Positions 6,284-58,499 of a DNA stretch of 58,499 bases are shown one piece after another. The first letter of the stretch is position 1; each line of letters starts with the position of its first letter. The position numbers and the translations under genes were made by a program. Under the pieces are notes generated by a model that made no database searches, had not been told where the DNA came from, and worked only from the letters and a program-made list of their open reading frames with translations. The DNA comes from a virus, in IMG/VR virus record IMGVR_UViG_3300038701_003495, positions 1-58,499 of that record; one strand, 5' to 3'.

Positions 6284-7546
6284 CTAGGGCGCGTAGGAAC
6301 TCAGGGCGACTGAGAAGCGCAGCGAGGCTGTCGAGGCGTCGTCAAAGCTGCCCGTGAATATGGCCAAGGCGCACACCAGGTCACCGGTGATTGTGAAACG
6401 GTTGAGTGTGTTGGTGCTTGACCCTAGGCCCCCCCAGAACGCGCCGTCCTGGCTGAATGATGGTCTGTAGAAACCTACTGAGAACTGCTCCCCCGCTGTG
6501 CTGTCGGTCGAAAGCATGTAGTAGCGAATCTGAGAGGCTTCTAATGGCCTTCGAAAGCAATACGTTCCGTAGGCCCGGCTAACCACTGCGTTGCCATCGG
6601 GGACCAGAACACTCGAAATCTGTTGAGGCACAAATTTTGGTTCTACAGACCCCGTCTTAAGGTGCCCCAGAAGCGAAACATCTGCTGTGCTCGTGCTTCG
6701 TGGATTGTAAACCACGACCTCGAGTTCATCGCCTGCGGCAGGAAGAGGAGGCAGCGGTATTCGATAGAACGCCGATCCGATGCCAGGAAACAGATAGCCA
6801 TCATAGCGCCACTCGCCAAGCTGGCTACGCCAACGAACGAACAGTTCAACGGGCAAAGCCTCTCCGGTTGTGTTGTAGGCAACGTCCACTGGCCAGGCAC
6901 CGCCACCTAGCCATACATCGAGATAGGTCGGCTGAGACGAGCGCCCGATCACCTTAAGGGCAGACCCCGCGTTCTCTGAGCGATTCGAGACCAGAATCAC
7001 CTCAGTCGAGGCCGCCAGCGTATCGTTGTCGTAGGAAACCATCGCGATGGTCTTATTGTCACCGACGCTTGCAACACCCTCGGCACTCTCTTGCCAAGAG
7101 CGCGTGCCTTCGACGGTCGCCGTACCCGACCCATCGTCTGGATCGTCGACGTGGCAACGGGCCCAACGCTTCTTGATCGACCAACGAGTGCTTAGGATCT
7201 TTCGTCCACCAACCGAGTCATAGTCGGCGAGGAGAAACTCGCGTTTGTCGGGCGCGCAAGACGACACGGCTAGGCCTGGGTCACACACAGTAACAACCGC
7301 CCATTTGCTCTTGTCGTCGGACTCATCGCACCAAATACGAACCGCCCTCGAGGTTCCCGGCTTAACGGTGACCGTGAGCGACAGCGTGTTCGTCACGTCC
7401 ATCTCTGCCATGTCGATCGGCAACGTATGGGGAGTCGCCGAAAGCGACGCCGCCGTAACACCGGTCTTCGCGGTCGTCACCAGGACCGAGGAGTCGGTGA
7501 CGCCGAAAAGAAGCGCCCCAAGGGTTAGAAAGGTCTTAAGGTTCAT
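6284..7546 (-). CDS. Putative tail fibre/receptor-binding protein with hydrophobic N-terminus, 420 aa
   Basis: The ATG at 7546 is chosen because it lies just after the upstream stop at 7563. The start KTFLTLGALLFGVTDSS looks like a signal peptide or membrane anchor, which is odd for a virion protein. The rest is beta-rich with no named domain, and has four Cys in the first 110 mature residues. It lies between two fibre-like genes in the tail region. It could be an exported or virion-membrane-interacting protein. Confidence 0.65.
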   Translation of the reverse strand: MNLKTFLTLGALLFGVTDSSVLVTTAKTGVTAASLSATPHTLPIDMAEMDVTNTLSLTVTVKPGTSRAVRIWCDESDDKSKWAVVTVCDPGLAVSSCAPDKREFLLADYDSVGGRKILSTRWSIKKRWARCHVDDPDDGSGTATVEGTRSWQESAEGVASVGDNKTIAMVSYDNDTLAASTEVILVSNRSENAGSALKVIGRSSQPTYLDVWLGGGAWPVDVAYNTTGEALPVELFVRWRSQLGEWRYDGYLFPGIGSAFYRIPLPPLPAAGDELEVVVYNPRSTSTADVSLLGHLKTGSVEPKFVPQQISSVLVPDGNAVVSRAYGTYCFRRPLEASQIRYYMLSTDSTAGEQFSVGFYRPSFSQDGAFWGGLGSSTNTLNRFTITGDLVCALAIFTGSFDDASTASLRFSVALSSYAP

Positions 7547-30878: not shown

Positions 30879-31117
30879 CACGATGCCTTTCCGTACTTCT
30901 GAGCCGAGAGGTTTCGAGACGCCCACGCCTCGAGCTTCGTGCAGGTCACGTCGACGAGGGTCTGGCTTCCCGTTGATGCTGCTTCGGCCACCTGGGCGTC
31001 GAATCTTCGAATCACGGCATGGTCGATGCGAGCCCCCTTGAACCAAAGCTCGTTGATGGTCTCCATCGATTGGCGAATGCGCTCCGCGCATTTTCTCTTT
31101 CGGTGTTCGAGGTTCAT
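30878..31117 (-). CDS. Small helical protein of unknown function, 79 aa
   Basis: A mostly helical protein (RKRKCAERIRQSMETINELW, then QTLVDVTCTKLEAWASRNLS). It overlaps the DnaC-like gene by 4 bp and the next gene by 1 bp. It may act with the replication proteins, judged by position alone. Confidence 0.7.
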   Translation of the reverse strand: MNLEHRKRKCAERIRQSMETINELWFKGARIDHAVIRRFDAQVAEAASTGSQTLVDVTCTKLEAWASRNLSAQKYGKAS

Positions 31118-31773
31118 CGGAGGCTCGCCCCCTCAAGGCCGACGAACGCGTGGGTCGTGGCCTCCCTGATTCGGTCGACAATCCTCTCGCCATAGCGCTC
31201 GCGAAACTCCGACGCGTTCAAGTTGGTGGTGAGGATGGTGCGCCGGTTGTTGCTGTAGCGCTGGTCGAGCAACTCATCGAGACGGCTGTACCAGTAGCCG
31301 TTCGCGTCGCCATACTCGGTCCCAAGGTCGTCGATGACGAGCGGTCCGACTTTGCCAACTCGGTCGATGGTGCCATCGTACCCGCTTACTCGAGCGAGCT
31401 TGCCGGCTGTCCACCAGCACGGGAATGCATTCGGCACGTCCCGCCGGTCCCGCGCCTCATGGGCCAACCACCAAGCGGCGGCAATCGACTTGCCAACCCC
31501 CGGGGGGCCGCTGAGCACGAGGCACCAGTCCGAAGCTGAACGCGACTGCCACGCCTTCACGGCCTGCACGCCCTCGGTCACCCTGGGTCTCTCGCTGAGG
31601 ACGTCGAGCACCCTGCGTGGAACCGCCCAAGACTCGGCAACGCGAAGACGAAGCCGTCGCTCGCTTTCCTCGATCTCCGCCTCGATGGCGTCGATTTCCT
31701 CAGCCGACATCGCGTCGGCCTTGGCTCTGATTTTCCTGACCACCGCATCGGGGTCAAAGTCGAACTGGTCCAC
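31114..31773 (-). CDS. DnaC-like helicase loader ATPase, 219 aa
   Basis: AAA+ ATPase that would load the host replicative helicase at the phage origin. Walker A is GPPGVGKS (89-96), Walker B is PLVIDDLGTEYGD, the sensor I block is RTILTTNLNASEF, and the arginine-finger region is ERIVDRIREATTH. The N-terminal helical part replaces the helicase-binding domain of DnaC. It overlaps the initiator-like gene by 20 bp. Confidence 0.9.
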   Translation of the reverse strand: MDQFDFDPDAVVRKIRAKADAMSAEEIDAIEAEIEESERRLRLRVAESWAVPRRVLDVLSERPRVTEGVQAVKAWQSRSASDWCLVLSGPPGVGKSIAAAWWLAHEARDRRDVPNAFPCWWTAGKLARVSGYDGTIDRVGKVGPLVIDDLGTEYGDANGYWYSRLDELLDQRYSNNRRTILTTNLNASEFRERYGERIVDRIREATTHAFVGLEGASLR

Positions 31774-32629
31774 TTTCGTGCTCCTTGCTTGGGGGTGCGT
31801 AGCCTCGTCGAATGTCCTTCTTGCGGGGTGAGCCGCGGGAACGGTTCTGAATGGGCTTTCGGTCTCGTTCGGAGACCAGGATTGTCAGGAATAGCCCCGG
31901 GTTCGGCCTTCCGTTGCGAGACTCTGCCTTTGCCTTCGCGTAGGAAATCTCTTCCTCGCCGAACGGAGCAGCGGCCATGAGGGTGGGCATGTGCTTCGGG
32001 CTAACGCCCCCAGCGTTGGCCCATCCCGACCAGCTCTGCAGCCGGGTGTTGAGTTCCCCTGCGCTAACCGACCGATCGTTTTTCCCGTTTTGCAGAGCAG
32101 GAGAAGAATGCACAGGCTCTGGAACAGGCACAGGCTCAGGCTCAGGCTCTGGGGCATCGACTTTTTGCTTTTTAGCATTGGTTTTCGATGCTCGGAGCAT
32201 GCTCGTAGCATCCGATTCCGTGCTCGTTGCATTGCTCGATTCTAAATTAGCATTGCCGTGGGCATCATTGCCGCCCCATCGTGCTTCGGCTGCAGCCCTC
32301 GCCTTGGCTTGACGCTTTGCTTTGTTGGCAAGCCAGGATTGGTGCTTGGCCCAGTTGTGCAGCCGATAGTTTTTCTCTGTTCCGTCGACAAGGCGAAGTT
32401 CGACAAACACGGTAAGGAGTTCGTCAGCGTCTCCCTGCCAGTCGACCTCATCGGCGATATCTTCATTGGAGAGACCCTTGAGATTCCCATCGGGCTTGCA
32501 GTCAGCGGCGTGAGCCCAAAGGTCCTCGATGGCGAGAACGCCATCGGCACCCAGTCGGCGGCGAAGTCGCTTGCGCTTGCGGTGACCACGCCATGATGTG
32601 GCGATCCTGAAGTCACTGTCTTCAATCAT
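31754..32629 (-). CDS. Replication initiator-like protein (DnaD/O type), 291 aa
   Basis: The N-terminal domain (residues 1-120) has a winged-helix look with LGADGVLAIEDLWAHAADC, LSNEDIADEVDW and RLVDGTEKNYRLHNWAKHQ, as in phage replication proteins paired with DnaC. A PEPEPEPVPVPEPV linker (about 155-170) separates it from a C-terminal helical tail (LNTRLQSWSGWANAGG). It is likely to recruit the loader encoded next. Similar O-type proteins often have the origin inside their own gene. Confidence 0.8.
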   Translation of the reverse strand: MIEDSDFRIATSWRGHRKRKRLRRRLGADGVLAIEDLWAHAADCKPDGNLKGLSNEDIADEVDWQGDADELLTVFVELRLVDGTEKNYRLHNWAKHQSWLANKAKRQAKARAAAEARWGGNDAHGNANLESSNATSTESDATSMLRASKTNAKKQKVDAPEPEPEPVPVPEPVHSSPALQNGKNDRSVSAGELNTRLQSWSGWANAGGVSPKHMPTLMAAAPFGEEEISYAKAKAESRNGRPNPGLFLTILVSERDRKPIQNRSRGSPRKKDIRRGYAPPSKEHESGPVRL

Positions 32630-33401
32630 TACTGAGTTCCTCGGCCGATAGATCGACCCATTCGCGAAAGTCAGTGATCGATTTAATCGTCTTTGCGATC
32701 TCCTTGATGCGGTCGAGGCTGTAGCCGTTGCTACGAATCTCCCTCAGCCCCGTAAGAAACTCTCGGTCGTACCTTCCTTCATAGAAGCTCATACGGTTAC
32801 GAAGAATGCCCCGCGCATAGCACAGTTCTCTTATTCCCGGGTCGTCATCCGATTTCGACAGAATCCAAGCGAATTTGGGAAGGTCAGCCCAAGCACGCTG
32901 CGCACTGTCGTGAGACCCATCAACATGCTTCTCGACGGCCTGACGCATGGCTTTGACCACAGATGCTGAACCGTACTTAACAATCAACGTTCTGAGCTTG
33001 GAACGTGCCCCTTCCCTCAGTTCGGTCCCGGGCACAATTTCACCCCAAAATTCAGCAATCGAATTGACCTCTTGCGATGTGTGGTCGACAAGAGACTTTT
33101 GCCATTCAAGCATCATCTCAAGTTGCTGGCGTCGTTCTTCAAGTTCGTCGAGCTGGGCCTTTTTTTTCGCCACAACGCTAGAATCGTCAATCGTCCTTGC
33201 GCCTTTGCCTAGATTGCATTCGACACACGAGGTGATCAGGTTAAGCAGATCATCATCCCCGCCGTGGGCGACGGGGTGAATGTGGTCCACATGGAGCACC
33301 ACTTCGGGCGCAGACTTGCCGCAGTACTGACAGGCGAACGAATCTCTTTTGAATATTTCAAACCGGGTCTTTTTCCCCAGCGCCTTCCGTTTCTTTGCCA
33401 C
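32622..33401 (-). CDS. HNH endonuclease, 259 aa
   Basis: The GTG at 33401 (AAGGAG seven bases upstream) is chosen over a GTG at 33551, because HNH proteins of this class begin directly with KKRKALGKKTRFEIFKRD. The HNH core is clear: CQYCGKSAPEVVLHVDHIHP and NLITSCVECNLGKG, with two CxxC zinc pairs. A coiled coil and a helical domain follow (after about 85). This start leaves a 146-bp noncoding gap upstream, as if the gene were inserted. Confidence 0.88.
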   Translation of the reverse strand: MAKKRKALGKKTRFEIFKRDSFACQYCGKSAPEVVLHVDHIHPVAHGGDDDLLNLITSCVECNLGKGARTIDDSSVVAKKKAQLDELEERRQQLEMMLEWQKSLVDHTSQEVNSIAEFWGEIVPGTELREGARSKLRTLIVKYGSASVVKAMRQAVEKHVDGSHDSAQRAWADLPKFAWILSKSDDDPGIRELCYARGILRNRMSFYEGRYDREFLTGLREIRSNGYSLDRIKEIAKTIKSITDFREWVDLSAEELSND

Positions 33402-33423
33402 TTTTCTTCTCCTTGATGTGGCC

Positions 33424-33468
33424 CCGGCCCCGATCCCCATCATGGAGAAGTCGAAGAATCGGGGCCGG
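33424..33468. other. Perfect 11-bp hairpin in the leader of the HNH gene
   Basis: CCGGCCCCGAT (33424-33434) and ATCGGGGCCGG (33458-33468) are perfectly complementary with a 23-nt loop. The hairpin lies in the 146-bp noncoding stretch between the HNH start and the preceding stop. There is no T-run after it on either strand, so it is not a classical terminator. It could be a processing or pausing site. Confidence 0.6.
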
Positions 33469-33547
33469 ATACCACGGACGAAAGGAGCTACCCTTCGCCC
33501 AAAATTTGCGATCAGCGAGCCGCGGGACCCGGTGAAGAGACCAGACC

Positions 33548-34063
33548 TCACGAATCCCCCTCCATAAGCTCCGAAAAGTCGAAATCGACCCCGACGACGT
33601 CGGTGATCGAAACCTGCTCAGTCGCCCACGCTTCGACTTCGTTGTTGAGCAGCTCGACCCAGGCGGGAACCGTCACCTTCCCGAGCACAAAGCTGCGCCC
33701 CAAATTGGTCGGGCGCCAAATGCCACTGGTTCGTTTTTTGCCGTCGGCTTCGGTCGCTTGCTCGAGCAAACCCCAGTGCGCCACGGTACCAAGTTGATTC
33801 GTTCGGATTACCCATCGAGGCGCCCTCTTTGGAACGTCAATCCAATCCTCGGGCGTGCGTTGCTGTCTGACGAGCCAAGCCACAGCGGCGCCCATCGTCT
33901 TATTGAGCTTGCGGCGGTATATCTTCGCAAGCCGCCCACAACAGGGACAGTTCGCCCCATCCTTCGCACGTCGCAGAAGGTCGGCCCGTGCTTGCTCCAT
34001 GGTGAGCGCTGCCGGGCGCTGAATGGGTGCATCTAATAGATTGAGCTGGGCGGCGGTCATCAC
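33548..34063 (-). CDS. Phage protein with CxxC zinc-finger-like motif, 171 aa
   Basis: NCPCCGRLAKIYRRKLNK (about 38-55) shows a CxxC pair and basic residues. The later part (TPEDWIDVPKRAPRWVIRT, LGTVAHWGLLEQAT) resembles conserved phage proteins of the replication region. It has a 4-bp overlap with the methyltransferase. The role is unknown, possibly nucleic-acid binding. Confidence 0.75.
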   Translation of the reverse strand: MMTAAQLNLLDAPIQRPAALTMEQARADLLRRAKDGANCPCCGRLAKIYRRKLNKTMGAAVAWLVRQQRTPEDWIDVPKRAPRWVIRTNQLGTVAHWGLLEQATEADGKKRTSGIWRPTNLGRSFVLGKVTVPAWVELLNNEVEAWATEQVSITDVVGVDFDFSELMEGDS

Positions 34064-34725: not shown

Positions 34726-35010
34726 TCACCCCACCTCACTTTCGACGTGGACGAAGTCCGGGCGTGTCGCGCAGACCGCACCGGGTGGGGCTTCTCGCTC
34801 CTCTGAGGACGAACCATAGGGGGTCAATTCGAGCGCGCGGTCTCTGATGAACCGGGTTCGACCGATTGGCTCGAGGCTTGAGTGCTTCCCCGCTCTAACG
34901 CCAAAGACTTCGACGACGAGCGCGAGTGCTGCCGCTCTCGTAGTTTCGCGCAGTATCGAGAACACCGGTCGCCCTCGCTCGCAAAACACGAATCGCCCCT
35001 TCTCAATCAT
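34726..35010 (-). CDS. Protein of unknown function, 94 aa
   Basis: Unnamed. It has a beta start (KGRFVFCERGRPVFSI), then helix, and a polar acidic end. The start overlaps the CII-like gene by 4 bp (ATGA) and the stop abuts the methyltransferase ATG, which together support a real coding region. Confidence 0.65.
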   Translation of the reverse strand: MIEKGRFVFCERGRPVFSILRETTRAAALALVVEVFGVRAGKHSSLEPIGRTRFIRDRALELTPYGSSSEEREAPPGAVCATRPDFVHVESEVG

Positions 35011-35378
35011 CGCAACCCCAGCTTTCTCTCGACGAGTTCGGCGAGTTCATCAGCGAAGAGCTCGCGTAAAACGTGGGGCAACCTCTCGACGACCTGCTCG
35101 GGAGTCGTCGGTGGGTCGAGTTCGGCTTCCTCAGCAATTCGAATCAGACCGCGTCGGTCTGCCCGCTTGAGGGCAATCATCTCCGAAGGTCGGATGTAGT
35201 TTCGGTTCTTCTCTTCGAGCTTGAGGCCAACGCTGCTCTCGTGGCATCCCCACAAGTCGGCGATGGCTTTGTGTCCAAGGTCTGCCGCCACTGCCTTGCA
35301 GGCGGCCCGAATTCTCGCGGCGGCAAGGGCATCACGGTCGTGGTCGACCAGCGGCAAAACGTACTGATTCAGACCCAT
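35007..35378 (-). CDS. Putative CII-like transcription activator, 123 aa
   Basis: Residues about 24-70 contain a helix-turn-helix (KAVAADLGHKAIADLWGCHE, then SSVGLKLEEK), followed by a helical tail (about 85-123, ERLPHVLRELFADELAELVE) that could oligomerise. GAGG lies six bases before the ATG. It is the second gene leftward of the switch, the place of cII in lambda, and a perfect TTGC-N6-TTGC direct repeat lies only 24 bp upstream of its start. Similarity to lambda CII itself is not evident, so the call rests on context. Confidence 0.6.
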   Translation of the reverse strand: MGLNQYVLPLVDHDRDALAAARIRAACKAVAADLGHKAIADLWGCHESSVGLKLEEKNRNYIRPSEMIALKRADRRGLIRIAEEAELDPPTTPEQVVERLPHVLRELFADELAELVERKLGLR

Positions 35379-35401
35379 GCAATGCCTCGCAATGGATAGA
35401 C

Positions 35402-35434
35402 TTGCAGACCCTTGCAGTCTCTAGAGTGTAAACT
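35402..35434 (+). promoter_or_regulatory. Lambda pRE-like CII-dependent promoter
   Basis: TTGC (35402-35405), six bases, TTGC (35412-35415) is the lambda CII recognition pattern, with the -35 region between the repeats. Exactly 17 bases after the six-base gap is TAAACT (35429-35434) as -10. The promoter reads rightward, antisense to the Cro-like gene and toward the repressor, as pRE does in lambda. Confidence 0.6.
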
Positions 35435-35470: not shown

Positions 35471-35722
35471 TCAGGCTGCCGTGTGGGCTTCTTGCGAGCG
35501 CCATTGTCGCCAGCTTTGCCACTGGTCCTCGGTGACTGCCCCGCGGGTGGCTCTAGTGATCGCCATCCGAGTACCGGTCGATGGGAACCGCGAGCCCGTG
35601 GACCATCGAGAGATGTCGCTTTGGGTCACGGGCCAGCCGCGGGCGACAGTCAGAAGCTCCGCGAAGTCTTCCTGTGTGAGTTCGGGGCGTGAATCGAGGT
35701 ACTGCTTGAGGGGATTGGTCAT
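35471..35722 (-). CDS. Cro-like repressor, 83 aa
   Basis: A small helix-turn-helix protein (TQEDFAELLTVARGWPVTQS, DISRWSTGSRFP) divergent from the repressor and first in the leftward string. The ATG at 35722 lies about where transcription from the adjacent promoter would begin, so the mRNA may be leaderless; there is no Shine-Dalgarno sequence. It would bind the 35734-35778 operators and turn down repressor synthesis. Confidence 0.75.
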   Translation of the reverse strand: MTNPLKQYLDSRPELTQEDFAELLTVARGWPVTQSDISRWSTGSRFPSTGTRMAITRATRGAVTEDQWQSWRQWRSQEAHTAA

Positions 35723-35728
35723 GCGCAA

Positions 35729-35778
35729 TATTTATGACTATAGTCATTCGCACGCAAGCACATTATGACTAAAATCAT
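35729..35778. promoter_or_regulatory. Switch operators and leftward promoter
   Basis: Two operator-like sites lie between the divergent regulators: ATGACTATAGTCAT (35734-35747, a perfect 14-bp palindrome) and ATGACTAAAATCAT (35765-35778). The leftward promoter reads TTGCGT (35757-35752 on the minus strand), a 17-bp spacer and TAAATA (35734-35729), so the first operator occupies the spacer. A weak rightward promoter may use TAGTCA (35741) and TATGAC (35764). An in-frame ATG at 35765 lies within the second operator, so it is an unlikely repressor start. Confidence 0.65.
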
Positions 35779-35830
35779 AAGCCTGCGAAAACGCTTGCGA
35801 TCTGACCACGCGAGACTGCAAAACAACGAA

Positions 35831-36238
35831 ATGACTTCCGGCATTTCAGGGAACGCTAACGACAGAGTGCTTCAAAAAGTGCGTGCTCTCATGGCGGAGC
35901 GTGGCTTGAAGCAGATTGAGGTTTCACGTGGTTCGGGGGTGGGCCAGGGTCTCTTGTCTCGCTATCTGGCAGGGAAAAAGAAGACGATCTCGGTCGATAC
36001 CATCGAGAAGTTGAGCGTCTTCTTTGGCATTCGACTTCTGGAGGACGCGCTACCTCCTACCACCGAAAGCCTCGATCGGTACCTCGAGTCCGTTTACGCG
36101 AAGGACGACAAAGTGACCGACGAGGAGATCGTTCACCTAAGGCGTCTGGGCGGGGCCTTCGTCGGCCCTGATGACTCCGACCCGAATCCTCGCGCGTGGT
36201 CAAAACTTCTTGAAGCGATAAGAATGCGGTCGTCCTGA
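35831..36238 (+). CDS. CI-like prophage repressor (XRE family), 135 aa
   Basis: An XRE helix-turn-helix covers residues about 10-60 (RVLQKVRALMAERGLKQIEV, GLLSRYLAGKKKTISVDT), followed by a short helical C-terminal part. No LexA-like Ser/Lys peptidase is present, so induction would not use RecA-stimulated cleavage of this protein. The start is uncertain: ATG 35831 is preferred, while ATG 35765 lies in an operator. It is divergent from the Cro-like gene. Confidence 0.75.
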   Translation: MTSGISGNANDRVLQKVRALMAERGLKQIEVSRGSGVGQGLLSRYLAGKKKTISVDTIEKLSVFFGIRLLEDALPPTTESLDRYLESVYAKDDKVTDEEIVHLRRLGGAFVGPDDSDPNPRAWSKLLEAIRMRSS

Positions 36239-37349: not shown

Positions 37350-37399
37350 ATGACTATCGACATTTTTATCTTGACTAAATTATATCGATAGTCATAACG
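37350..37399 (+). promoter_or_regulatory. Early rightward promoter with flanking operators
   Basis: ATGACTATCGA (37350-37360) and its inverted copy TCGATAGTCAT (37385-37395) flank TTGACT (37371-37376). A -10 of CATAAC (37393-37398, 16-bp spacer) overlaps the second copy. The half-sites match the switch operators 1.6 kb away, so the repressor probably silences this promoter too. AGGGAGG follows at 37414 before the ATG at 37426. Confidence 0.65.
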
Positions 37400-43554: not shown

Positions 43555-43626
43555 AGCGGGACCGCGTGGGCGGGACCAGGGCTCATAACCCAGGACCGGG
43601 CGGTTCGACTCCGTCTCCCGCTACCA
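43555..43626 (+). tRNA. CAU-anticodon tRNA-like gene, 72 nt
   Basis: AGCGGGA pairs with TCCCGCT, followed by ACCA. The T arm is GGCGG-TTCGACT-CCGTC. The anticodon arm is CAGGG-CTCATAA-CCCAG with one A-A mismatch, and the three G-C pairs next to the loop recall initiator tRNA. The segment between acceptor and anticodon stem is only 15 nt (about 19-20 is usual), so the D arm is shortened (CCGC-GTGG-GCGG). It may be a tRNA-Met, a CAU-Ile species, or a decayed copy. Confidence 0.65.
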
Positions 43627-49906: not shown

Positions 49907-50179
49907 ATGAGCCGCTCGTGTTATTACCGACGAACTGTACACTCCAGCCACAGCAAGGGCGGGCGAACCTCTCAGGCGATGATCGACCGAGAAGTCTCTC
50001 TCCTGAAAAGATACTTGGCGAAACCCCGAAGAGCGTCAGACATCATGGAGCAATACGGGTGGTCAAAACGGACCGCAATGCGACGAATGGCAGAGGTCGG
50101 TAGGGTTGTTCGGGTGACCCCCGTAAGCCTAAACGAATGCTGGTACGTGAACGCCCCAAAAAGCTGGGGAGACTTTTAG
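49907..50179 (+). CDS. Small winged-helix-like protein, 90 aa
   Basis: GGAAGG lies nine bases before the ATG. Residues about 25-75 look like a winged helix (EVSLLKRYLAKPRRASDIME, QYGWSKRTAMRRMAEVGRVV). It stops two bases before the integrase start, so it is co-transcribed and may regulate integration or bind the 19-bp repeats just upstream. Confidence 0.65.
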   Translation: MSRSCYYRRTVHSSHSKGGRTSQAMIDREVSLLKRYLAKPRRASDIMEQYGWSKRTAMRRMAEVGRVVRVTPVSLNECWYVNAPKSWGDF

Positions 50180-55886: not shown

Positions 55887-58433
55887 CTATTCGTCCGGTG
55901 TCATAACGACGGTGAGATTGAGGCCGCTGCTTCCGATGGTCGCAACAACGGGAGAGCTTTTATAGTAGGGGCTCGATGAACCTTTCCTCACCCACCCCTC
56001 TATGCCTTGGTCTGACGTGTAGCCGTACGAAGCCGAGACCTGGCCGCTCGCATTCGTCAGGCCGTTGATGACCTCGACACCTGAGGAAGCTGGCCCCCCG
56101 CTATCGGTCAGCAAGTAAACCCGCGCGTTCTCAATCACCGAGTTGTCGGACCCGTCGCGCACCGTAACGTTCACATCGACGGGGGTCGTCAATGGGTACA
56201 GGTTGGATGCTTGTGCCGCCAACGTCGTCGTGGTCGAAAGGTAGAGGCCGTTGATGATGTTGAAGCTGCTCGAGCTGTCCGCAATCAGTCGAATCTTGAG
56301 CCCAAACCCTGCCGCGCTGATCGTCTCCCCACTGAGATTTGCTGACGTTGCCGCCTTGAAAGCACCGAACCCAGCGCCCGTGTCTAGACTGTATTCAGCG
56401 TGCCAGTTGCCGGTGTTGAAGCCATTCTCAACCGCGTCGAGCGCCTGGAAGCCAGTGTGCCCAAGGATTTGGTGGGGCCACGTGAACGTTATCTGGTCAC
56501 CTGCCGTTCGCATGTACAGGTCGCCGTCTTTTCGGAAGACGGGTGTTCCTGAGTCGATCGAAACATGGGGCGACGTGTTACCGTTGAGCCCAGTGAAAAG
56601 CAGGTGAATGCGGCCCTGTGTGTCGCTCGTAAAGACGTCGGCAAAAGTAGTCCCCACGACTGCCCCGAAGTCGACCTCCATGCCGGTCCCGCTATTCAGC
56701 GCCCCACTTGCACCATGACAGCCCTTGATGGTCATGTCTGACCCAGCGACGTTGTAGCGGCTCGCGTAGTCCACTGAGCAGTTTTCGAAAGTCACGCCCT
56801 GGGTGGTAGCGAACTCACCGAAGTATGCCGCGCCGAAATTTTCGAAGTAGATGCGCTGAAACAGGATGCCCTTGCAGCTTCCGTTGCAGTAGATGAGCCC
56901 GTCGCCCATACCGCCAAGGTCCCACTTGCTTGTCGGCACGCCGGCTGAATCCCTGACCGTGATGTCTGACGAGTCGAGGTAATAGAACGAGTAGCTGTCG
57001 GCCCCTACCCCGCCACTGATGATGCCAACACCATCGAAGACGATGCCCGAAGAGCCGCCGTTAATTTCGACCATGTTTGTTGAGTTCGTCCCGGTGACGT
57101 TACCCGTGGGGTTGTCACTGTATTCGAAATCGTTGACCACGAACCCGTTCGAGCCGGTCGCAACCTCGAACTCACCTCTAATGCACTTGATGCCGTTGAT
57201 GGTGACGTTGGAGCACGTTGTGAATCGTGTGTTGTCGGCGCTCGAATAGGTGTGGTCAGGGTCCGCCCCGAGGCACCGCACGTTATCGATCGTGATGTTG
57301 GCAGACGTTTCAAAGACAAGCACAGCCTGACCAGTGCCGGCGAATTGCGCGCCGAAGTCGCAATCGTCGATATCAATAGATACGCAGTCCAGAAGACGCT
57401 GACCGTTGGTCTGCGATGAGTAGCCGTTGCTTTGGACAAAGCCGCAGTCTTCGAGCACCACTGCCCCCAGCACTGCCGTAGCCAGGTCGCCGTCAGACCG
57501 GGGCACAGAACAGTGCTTGAGGGTGAGGTTGTCAGGCGCCCAAAACTCCATCTGGACACTCGAGGCATTGAGGTACTCGAGGTCGATGTCTGCTGTCGAT
57601 TGAATTGGCGCGAGCAAGATGTTTGCCGACGGTGTGCTGAAAACCTCCGTCGTCGGGCTGCCTGTTGTCGTGGTGCCAAGGTGAACATTTGGAATGCGCA
57701 GACGCGCCCCGCTCGCTGGCCTGCCCCCGTTGGTTGACGTTCCGAATGTTGCTGTCGACGAGCCCAGGGTCTGAGTGAAAACACGACCAAGGTCGCCAAC
57801 GCCGAAGTCCGTCAACGCCTCTTCCGTCCTAAGCCAGCGCTCGAAGACGCCTGTGCCGCTGCCTGTCTCGACCCAGATGCAGCACTGCTGCCCTGAGTGA
57901 GGCAGCGTGAAGGCCTGCGAGTCTGTGCCGTCACCGGTGCCTACCTCGTACCAATCGCCGCGAGTCCGAAGAGTGGCAAACCCAGTCATGCCCCAGTCTT
58001 GGTCTTCTCCAAAGACCTTGAGGAAACCCACGGCGACTGTGTCGAGTGTCGCCGACCAGCCACCGCTGGTGATTGTCTCGGTGGCAGAGAAGGTGCCCGA
58101 GAGCACCGTGAAGGTCAGGGTCCCTGCGGTGTTGTCGCCGCTATTCTGCTCGATGTATTTTGCTGTCGCCCCGCTCGTTCCCCCAGTTATGGTATCGCCG
58201 ATGGACGGCAGAGACCCCGACCCTGAAGAGTAGTCGATCTCTTGGACGCTCCGCCCGTCGATCAGAACGACGCCGTCGCTTAGGGTGATATCGCCCAGAA
58301 TGCCCATTGCTGTTGACGAAACGCATGAGTCGATCGTGAGCGTCGCACCGCTGTTGATCGTGATGTCCTCCCCTGCTGCCCGGCCGGTGAGGGCGTCGTG
58401 ATTCGAGTCTGTCGTGATAGTTTGATTGGCCAT
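55887..58433 (-). CDS. Large beta-helix tail fibre/adhesin, 848 aa
   Basis: After an N-terminal beta domain (ITTDSNHDALTGRAAGEDIT, then SIGDTITGGTSGATAKYIEQ) the middle (about 280-560) has dozens of short strands with Asn and Asp ladders (LKHCSVPRSDGD, VTINGIKCIRG, FENCSVDYASRYNV), a right-handed beta helix. The C-terminus (about 720-848) has a Big/Ig-like domain (VDVNVTVRDGSDNSVIENAR). It is probably a long receptor-binding fibre. The start lies in the terminal repeat. Confidence 0.85.
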   Translation of the reverse strand: MANQTITTDSNHDALTGRAAGEDITINSGATLTIDSCVSSTAMGILGDITLSDGVVLIDGRSVQEIDYSSGSGSLPSIGDTITGGTSGATAKYIEQNSGDNTAGTLTFTVLSGTFSATETITSGGWSATLDTVAVGFLKVFGEDQDWGMTGFATLRTRGDWYEVGTGDGTDSQAFTLPHSGQQCCIWVETGSGTGVFERWLRTEEALTDFGVGDLGRVFTQTLGSSTATFGTSTNGGRPASGARLRIPNVHLGTTTTGSPTTEVFSTPSANILLAPIQSTADIDLEYLNASSVQMEFWAPDNLTLKHCSVPRSDGDLATAVLGAVVLEDCGFVQSNGYSSQTNGQRLLDCVSIDIDDCDFGAQFAGTGQAVLVFETSANITIDNVRCLGADPDHTYSSADNTRFTTCSNVTINGIKCIRGEFEVATGSNGFVVNDFEYSDNPTGNVTGTNSTNMVEINGGSSGIVFDGVGIISGGVGADSYSFYYLDSSDITVRDSAGVPTSKWDLGGMGDGLIYCNGSCKGILFQRIYFENFGAAYFGEFATTQGVTFENCSVDYASRYNVAGSDMTIKGCHGASGALNSGTGMEVDFGAVVGTTFADVFTSDTQGRIHLLFTGLNGNTSPHVSIDSGTPVFRKDGDLYMRTAGDQITFTWPHQILGHTGFQALDAVENGFNTGNWHAEYSLDTGAGFGAFKAATSANLSGETISAAGFGLKIRLIADSSSSFNIINGLYLSTTTTLAAQASNLYPLTTPVDVNVTVRDGSDNSVIENARVYLLTDSGGPASSGVEVINGLTNASGQVSASYGYTSDQGIEGWVRKGSSSPYYKSSPVVATIGSSGLNLTVVMTPDE

Positions 58434-58499
58434 CGCTAGTTCCGGTCGTGACGTCTAGAAAAATTTCCTCTTCGAAAAACGTCGAGCTATTGCCTCCGG
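58374..58499. repeat. Right copy of terminal direct repeat
   Basis: This is an exact copy of bases 2-127. Joining the copies makes the minus-strand late gene string continuous from position 152 into the gene starting at 58433, with a 90-bp spacer. The unique genome length is then about 58,373 bp. Confidence 0.9.

Follow-up and report, generated by a model that had tools for sequence, protein, structure and literature searches.

Phage lambda carries the lysogeny-establishment promoter pRE, which is served by the activator CII (PF05269 Phage_CII; PHROG 191) and lies inside the first codons of cII. In the lambda sequence (NC_001416) pRE reads TTGC-GTTTGT-TTGC-N13-AAGTAT, and lambda CII promoters occur at two types of position, pRE and paQ. 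In phage 186, the gene for CII (PF06892, Phage_CP76) follows that of the lytic regulator, and the establishment promoter pE points backward from the start of the gene; its recognition sequence is an inverted ATGTTTG/CAAACAT pair, with no TTGC repeats. CII-like regulators of PHROG 725, present in the phage genome L032 and in Pseudomonas phage LC3I3, occupy the cII position before HNH and initiator genes; LC3I3 has a PF05269 CII, yet TTGC-N6-TTGC is absent from the stretch examined. Finally, sequence analysis of gp48 of Salmonella phage epsilon34 has described TTGCN6TTGC/T sites kept beside a CII whose N-terminal, DNA-binding half is weakly similar (PMC2629481).

The locus described here lies in a stretch of viral DNA of 58,499 nucleotides (IMG/VR record IMGVR_UViG_3300038701_003495), the whole of which is referred to as the window. 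It ends in an identical repeat of 126 bp (2-127 = 58374-58499), which probably marks the record as a circular assembly, complete at about 58.37 kb. The original prediction placed a lambda-type pRE in a phage with a Mu-type virion, and the virion is indeed of this type: PHROG matches, and tblastn matches in Mu-like phages, identify a Mu-like terminase, portal, gpF-type head protein, sheath and baseplate. The control and replication region, on the other hand, is lambda-like. Leftward, a cro-like gene is followed by genes for a 123-aa protein, a 94-aa protein, an MT-A70 methyltransferase, a PHROG 2693 protein, an HNH protein, a replication initiator and a DnaC-like loader (Table 1). Escherichia phage Louie is annotated with the order repressor, cro, CII, HNH, initiator and DnaC, its CII gene being lambda's own, and the order cI, cro and CII-family gene in LC3I3 is followed by the same HNH gene; by these two gene orders, the cII position is here taken by the 123-aa gene, just as PHROG 725 regulators take it ahead of these HNH and initiator genes. 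It is part of an overlapping operon, in which its stop codon overlaps the next start, and it has a GAGG ribosome-binding site. Unlike many other genes in this phage, neither the cro-like gene nor any candidate repressor start (35722-35831) has a recognisable ribosome-binding site.

Operator clusters flank the repressor gene on both sides, and that at 37350-37397 would, by analogy, be a second cluster such as that found at lambda pL. The rightward operon encodes SbcD and SbcC homologues, an HTH_17-like excisionase candidate, identified by visual inspection, and a tyrosine integrase. A phage-borne tRNA-Met gene (CAT anticodon; 43555-43626), the sole tRNA reported by ARAGORN, is found downstream of the SbcCD genes. 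Just downstream of int, the segment 51826-51900, read by eye, resembles the 3' half of a tRNA-Pro (TGG) gene and is probably the attP core.

Table 1. Features of the control and replication region of the window, in order of position.
Feature	Position	Strand	Remarks
DnaC-like loader	31114-31773	-	PHROG 50
Replication initiator	31754-32629	-	PHROG 9474
HNH protein	32622-33551	-	PHROG 16986; marker for finding lambdoid modules of like gene order
123-aa gene in cII position, proposed activator	35007-35378	-	Weak helix-turn-helix signal, no family match
Second TTGC-N6-TTGC, inverted relative to the first	35379-35392	-	Exact match; not mentioned in the original prediction
TTGCAGACCC-TTGC, direct repeat TTGC-N6-TTGC, candidate CII-type activator site of pRE	35402-35415	+	Exact match
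Candidate -10 hexamer TAAACT, 13 bp past second TTGC	35429-35434	+	4/6 matches to TATAAT
cro-like gene	35471-35728	-	Start 35728 or 35722; weak matches to PHROG 35 repressor, YdaS and P22_Cro models
Operator TTATGACTATAGTCAT between repressor and cro genes	35732-35747
Second operator TTATGACTAAAATCATAA	35763-35780		Overlaps -10 of candidate leftward early promoter
Repressor-like HTH_3 protein, proposed pRE target	35765-36238	+	Start possibly further in, near 35831
Operator-like inverted repeats 5' of rightward operon	37350-37397		Related to repressor operators

The complete element, 35402-35434 on the plus strand, reads TTGCAGACCCTTGCAGTCTCTAGAGTGTAAACT. Its two TTGC boxes are 10 bp apart, and 17 bp separate the N6 segment (35406-35411) from the -10 hexamer; the 13 bp between the second box and the -10 are also found in lambda pRE. 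Both the repeat and the TAAACT hexamer at 17 bp, as predicted, are thus real, with a spacing equal to that of lambda. The element is housed in a 92-bp gap between the stop of the cro-like gene (35471) and the start of the 123-aa gene (35378). Open reading frames and annotation confirm that it points toward the repressor gene and sits upstream of the cII-position gene; nothing resembling a terminator was found between the element and the repressor. As far as sequence can be tested, the element has every feature of lambda pRE: site sequence, spacing, location between cro and the cII position, orientation toward the repressor, and replication genes that come next. The pRE interpretation of the original prediction thus stands as regards geometry, orientation and gene position. 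The locus differs from lambda in that the site lies upstream of the cII-position gene rather than within it, the candidate activator falls outside the CII family, an additional inverted TTGC pair is present, and the phage has a Mu-type virion and no paQ or pI counterpart of correct geometry. Weighing all of the evidence given here, we see about an even chance that 35402-35434 forms the core of a lambda-type pRE and that the 123-aa protein, as a diverged CII-like activator, drives it. The lambda-like layout of cro, a promoter pointing back, the cII position and replication genes favours this reading; the match of the -10 at 4/6 positions and the unexplained inverted TTGC pair, which is foreign to lambda, weaken it.

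A rival explanation is that TTGC-N6-TTGC and a weak -10 fell in this gap by chance and that there is no activator-dependent promoter. On its own the motif is frequent (5 occurrences in the window versus 2.5 expected), and 294 potential CII sites have been noted for the E. coli genome (PMC5869508). The weak -10, the unrecognised activator and the many patterns examined in the first reading of the sequence also speak for coincidence. Against it stands the rarity of the full geometry, for which 0.005-0.02 occurrences are expected per window (N13, or N12-14): TTGC-N6-TTGC-N13-TAnnnT has an expectation of 0.01 in 300 order-2 Markov simulations and of 0.005 in a 12-Mb simulation, and relaxing the spacing to N12-14 raises this to 0.02-0.03. 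Restriction to the gap between the cro-like and 123-aa genes in the correct orientation contributes a further factor of less than 1%, which brings the chance of the full geometry within the gap or region, correctly oriented, to about 1e-5 to 1e-4, and the gene order fits as well. The remaining TTGC-N6-TTGC sites in the window (348, 51959 and 53333) were rejected as pI or paQ, having no TAnnnT at N12-14.

The same geometry was found in other phages. Fifty phage records (2.3 Mb) yielded 7 matches to TTGC-N6-TTGC-N13-TAnnnT and none to a reversed-pattern control; phage Louie (L012), which is outside those 50, brings the matches to eight. Half of the eight (L032, Louie, L087 and L090) are at canonical CII-promoter positions. 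In L032, TTGC-N6-TTGC-N13-TAAATT (6512-6544) lies across the start codon of the PHROG 725 CII-like gene, which has no Pfam match; in the promoter-like element L032 resembles the present phage. The match in Louie is antisense to an annotated Q-like gene, and L087 and L090 each have one match antisense to the gene at the Q position; these last two would, by position alone, be paQ sites. The other four matches have no obvious CII position, which lends some weight to coincidence, and because only 4/8 are canonically placed the pattern detects CII promoters fairly well but imperfectly. A TTGC-N6-TTGC in pRE orientation, with no -10, was also observed in L071 (806-819), just 5' of a 123-aa gene of the 186 CII type (PF06892). 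The identity of the geometry with that of lambda pRE, its rarity by chance and the empty reversed control argue for a pRE, as do the gene order of Louie and the marking of CII promoters by this geometry in L032, Louie, L087 and L090. We regard a purely fortuitous match as rather unlikely.

The 123-aa protein had been predicted not to resemble lambda CII, and the comparisons with family models agree. No Pfam family was found for it at E values up to 10, PF05269 has no match anywhere in the genome in six frames, and PF06892 matches neither the protein nor the six-frame translation at E <= 10. There was likewise no match to the CII PHROGs (191, 725 and 3638) or to solved structures, and an HMM built from eight CII relatives gave E = 0.94. 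A single-sequence structure model had a pLDDT of 50, too poor for a fold search. Profile alignment to the CII helix-turn-helix (GHKAIADLWGCHESSV) over 31 columns scored 22.6, versus at most 15.7 in 100 shuffles; with the same profile the protein ranks 27 of 461, and eight of the 26 proteins placed higher are the profile's own CII members. The failure to match PF05269, PF06892 and the CII PHROGs weakens the pRE reading, as does a helix-turn-helix signal that many unrelated HTH proteins equal or exceed, while the superiority over 100 shuffles and the precedent of epsilon34 favour it. The 123-aa product is, on its sequence, a probable HTH protein of no recognised family, CII-like by position rather than by demonstrable descent.

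No convincing relative of the protein was found in any collection searched, and tblastn against phages and plasmids at E values up to 10 returned none. A match in Streptomyces from the genome collection covers 39 residues outside the HTH, and a weak match in genome G049 (E 0.012) contains one internal stop; both were judged to be chance. Relatives in viral contigs of the 123-aa protein, the repressor, the DnaC-like protein, the methyltransferase and the terminase were not informative for the control region. Viral contigs, phage records, plasmids and the genome collection all failed to yield a control region related to this one.

Epsilon34 is a partial precedent for a site that is kept while its CII diverges, which makes the present case a variation on a known theme and not a new type; unlike the 123-aa protein, however, epsilon34 CII retains a clearly lambda-like C-terminal part. 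A bolder proposal, which we advance with considerable reserve, is that a lysogeny activator from a helix-turn-helix family outside lambda CII and 186 CII uses the operator and promoter geometry of lambda CII; the protein may have been exchanged over a retained site, or the site may have arisen twice. A genuine pRE might instead be served by another phage gene or by a host protein. The missing family match of the 123-aa protein, and the many small uncharacterised genes of this phage, leave room for such an activator. It is nonetheless a very improbable solution, given that in lambda, Louie and L032 the activator is encoded right where the site lies, and that PF05269 has no match genome-wide in six frames.

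The second TTGC pair (35379-35392) raises the question of whether the boxes serve as an operator. With it, the locus in full is GCAA-N6-GCAA-N9-TTGC-N6-TTGC, spanning the start of the 123-aa gene, and the boxes could be bound by the 123-aa protein as a dimeric HTH protein that represses or autoregulates its own gene, in which case the promoter geometry would be incidental. This four-box pattern was not encountered once in the 12-Mb simulation. According to its annotation and sequence, 186 CII acts on an inverted pair located where its own gene begins, and its HTH layout is similar: the HTH region of the 123-aa protein aligns with it ungapped over 46 residues (24% identity, score 19.7), although the protein has no PF06892 match. 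On the other side, the minus-strand pair includes the GAGG ribosome-binding site, runs directly up to the start codon and lacks a correctly spaced -10, so that this half of the element may be fortuitous. The four-box element was rejected as a recurrent regulatory element, since all of its 22 matches in viral contigs are inside genes; it may still be an operator of the 123-aa protein in the present phage. This explanation would also reduce the exact pRE geometry to a coincidence; we consider it unlikely.

The TTGC boxes were rejected as a site for the phage repressor or Cro, for the presumed operators differ in sequence; because the repressor operators are unrelated to them, the boxes need another protein. 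If the element is a pRE driven by the 123-aa protein, the leftward early transcript made after infection would yield the cro-like protein and the 123-aa protein. The latter would bind the TTGC repeats flanking the -35 region and recruit RNA polymerase. A rightward transcript starting at about 35441, antisense to cro, would then carry the repressor message and lead to lysogeny, and the repressor, once made, would close the early promoters at the ATGACTATAGTCAT operators.

The rest of the window offers one possible second target of the activator. This closest ungapped counterpart of the 33-bp core (23/33; 49934-49966, minus strand) reads TCGCCCGCCCTTGC-N13-TACAGT, with one box altered to TCGC, and lies between the excisionase-like and integrase genes; a score of 23 was reached in 1/60 simulated windows. 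It was rejected as pI because it is oriented away from int, and its use as a promoter antisense to the excisionase gene is speculative. No pI-like site of the right orientation was found before int, and this, together with the lack of a ribosome-binding site at the repressor gene, counts against the pRE reading.

The pattern TTGC-N6-TTGC-N13-TAnnnT picked out CII promoters in other phages, at pRE as well as at paQ positions, and its reversed control was clean. Judged from its genes and sites, a phage with a Mu-type particle has a lambda-like life-cycle switch with a likely copy of the lambda lysogeny-establishment promoter, while the adjacent gene, expected to encode the activator, falls in no recognised family. 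If this is true, the geometry of the CII operator outlasts or outpaces the sequence of the protein recognising it, and pRE-like sites could thereby reveal lysogeny activators that homology searches have missed.
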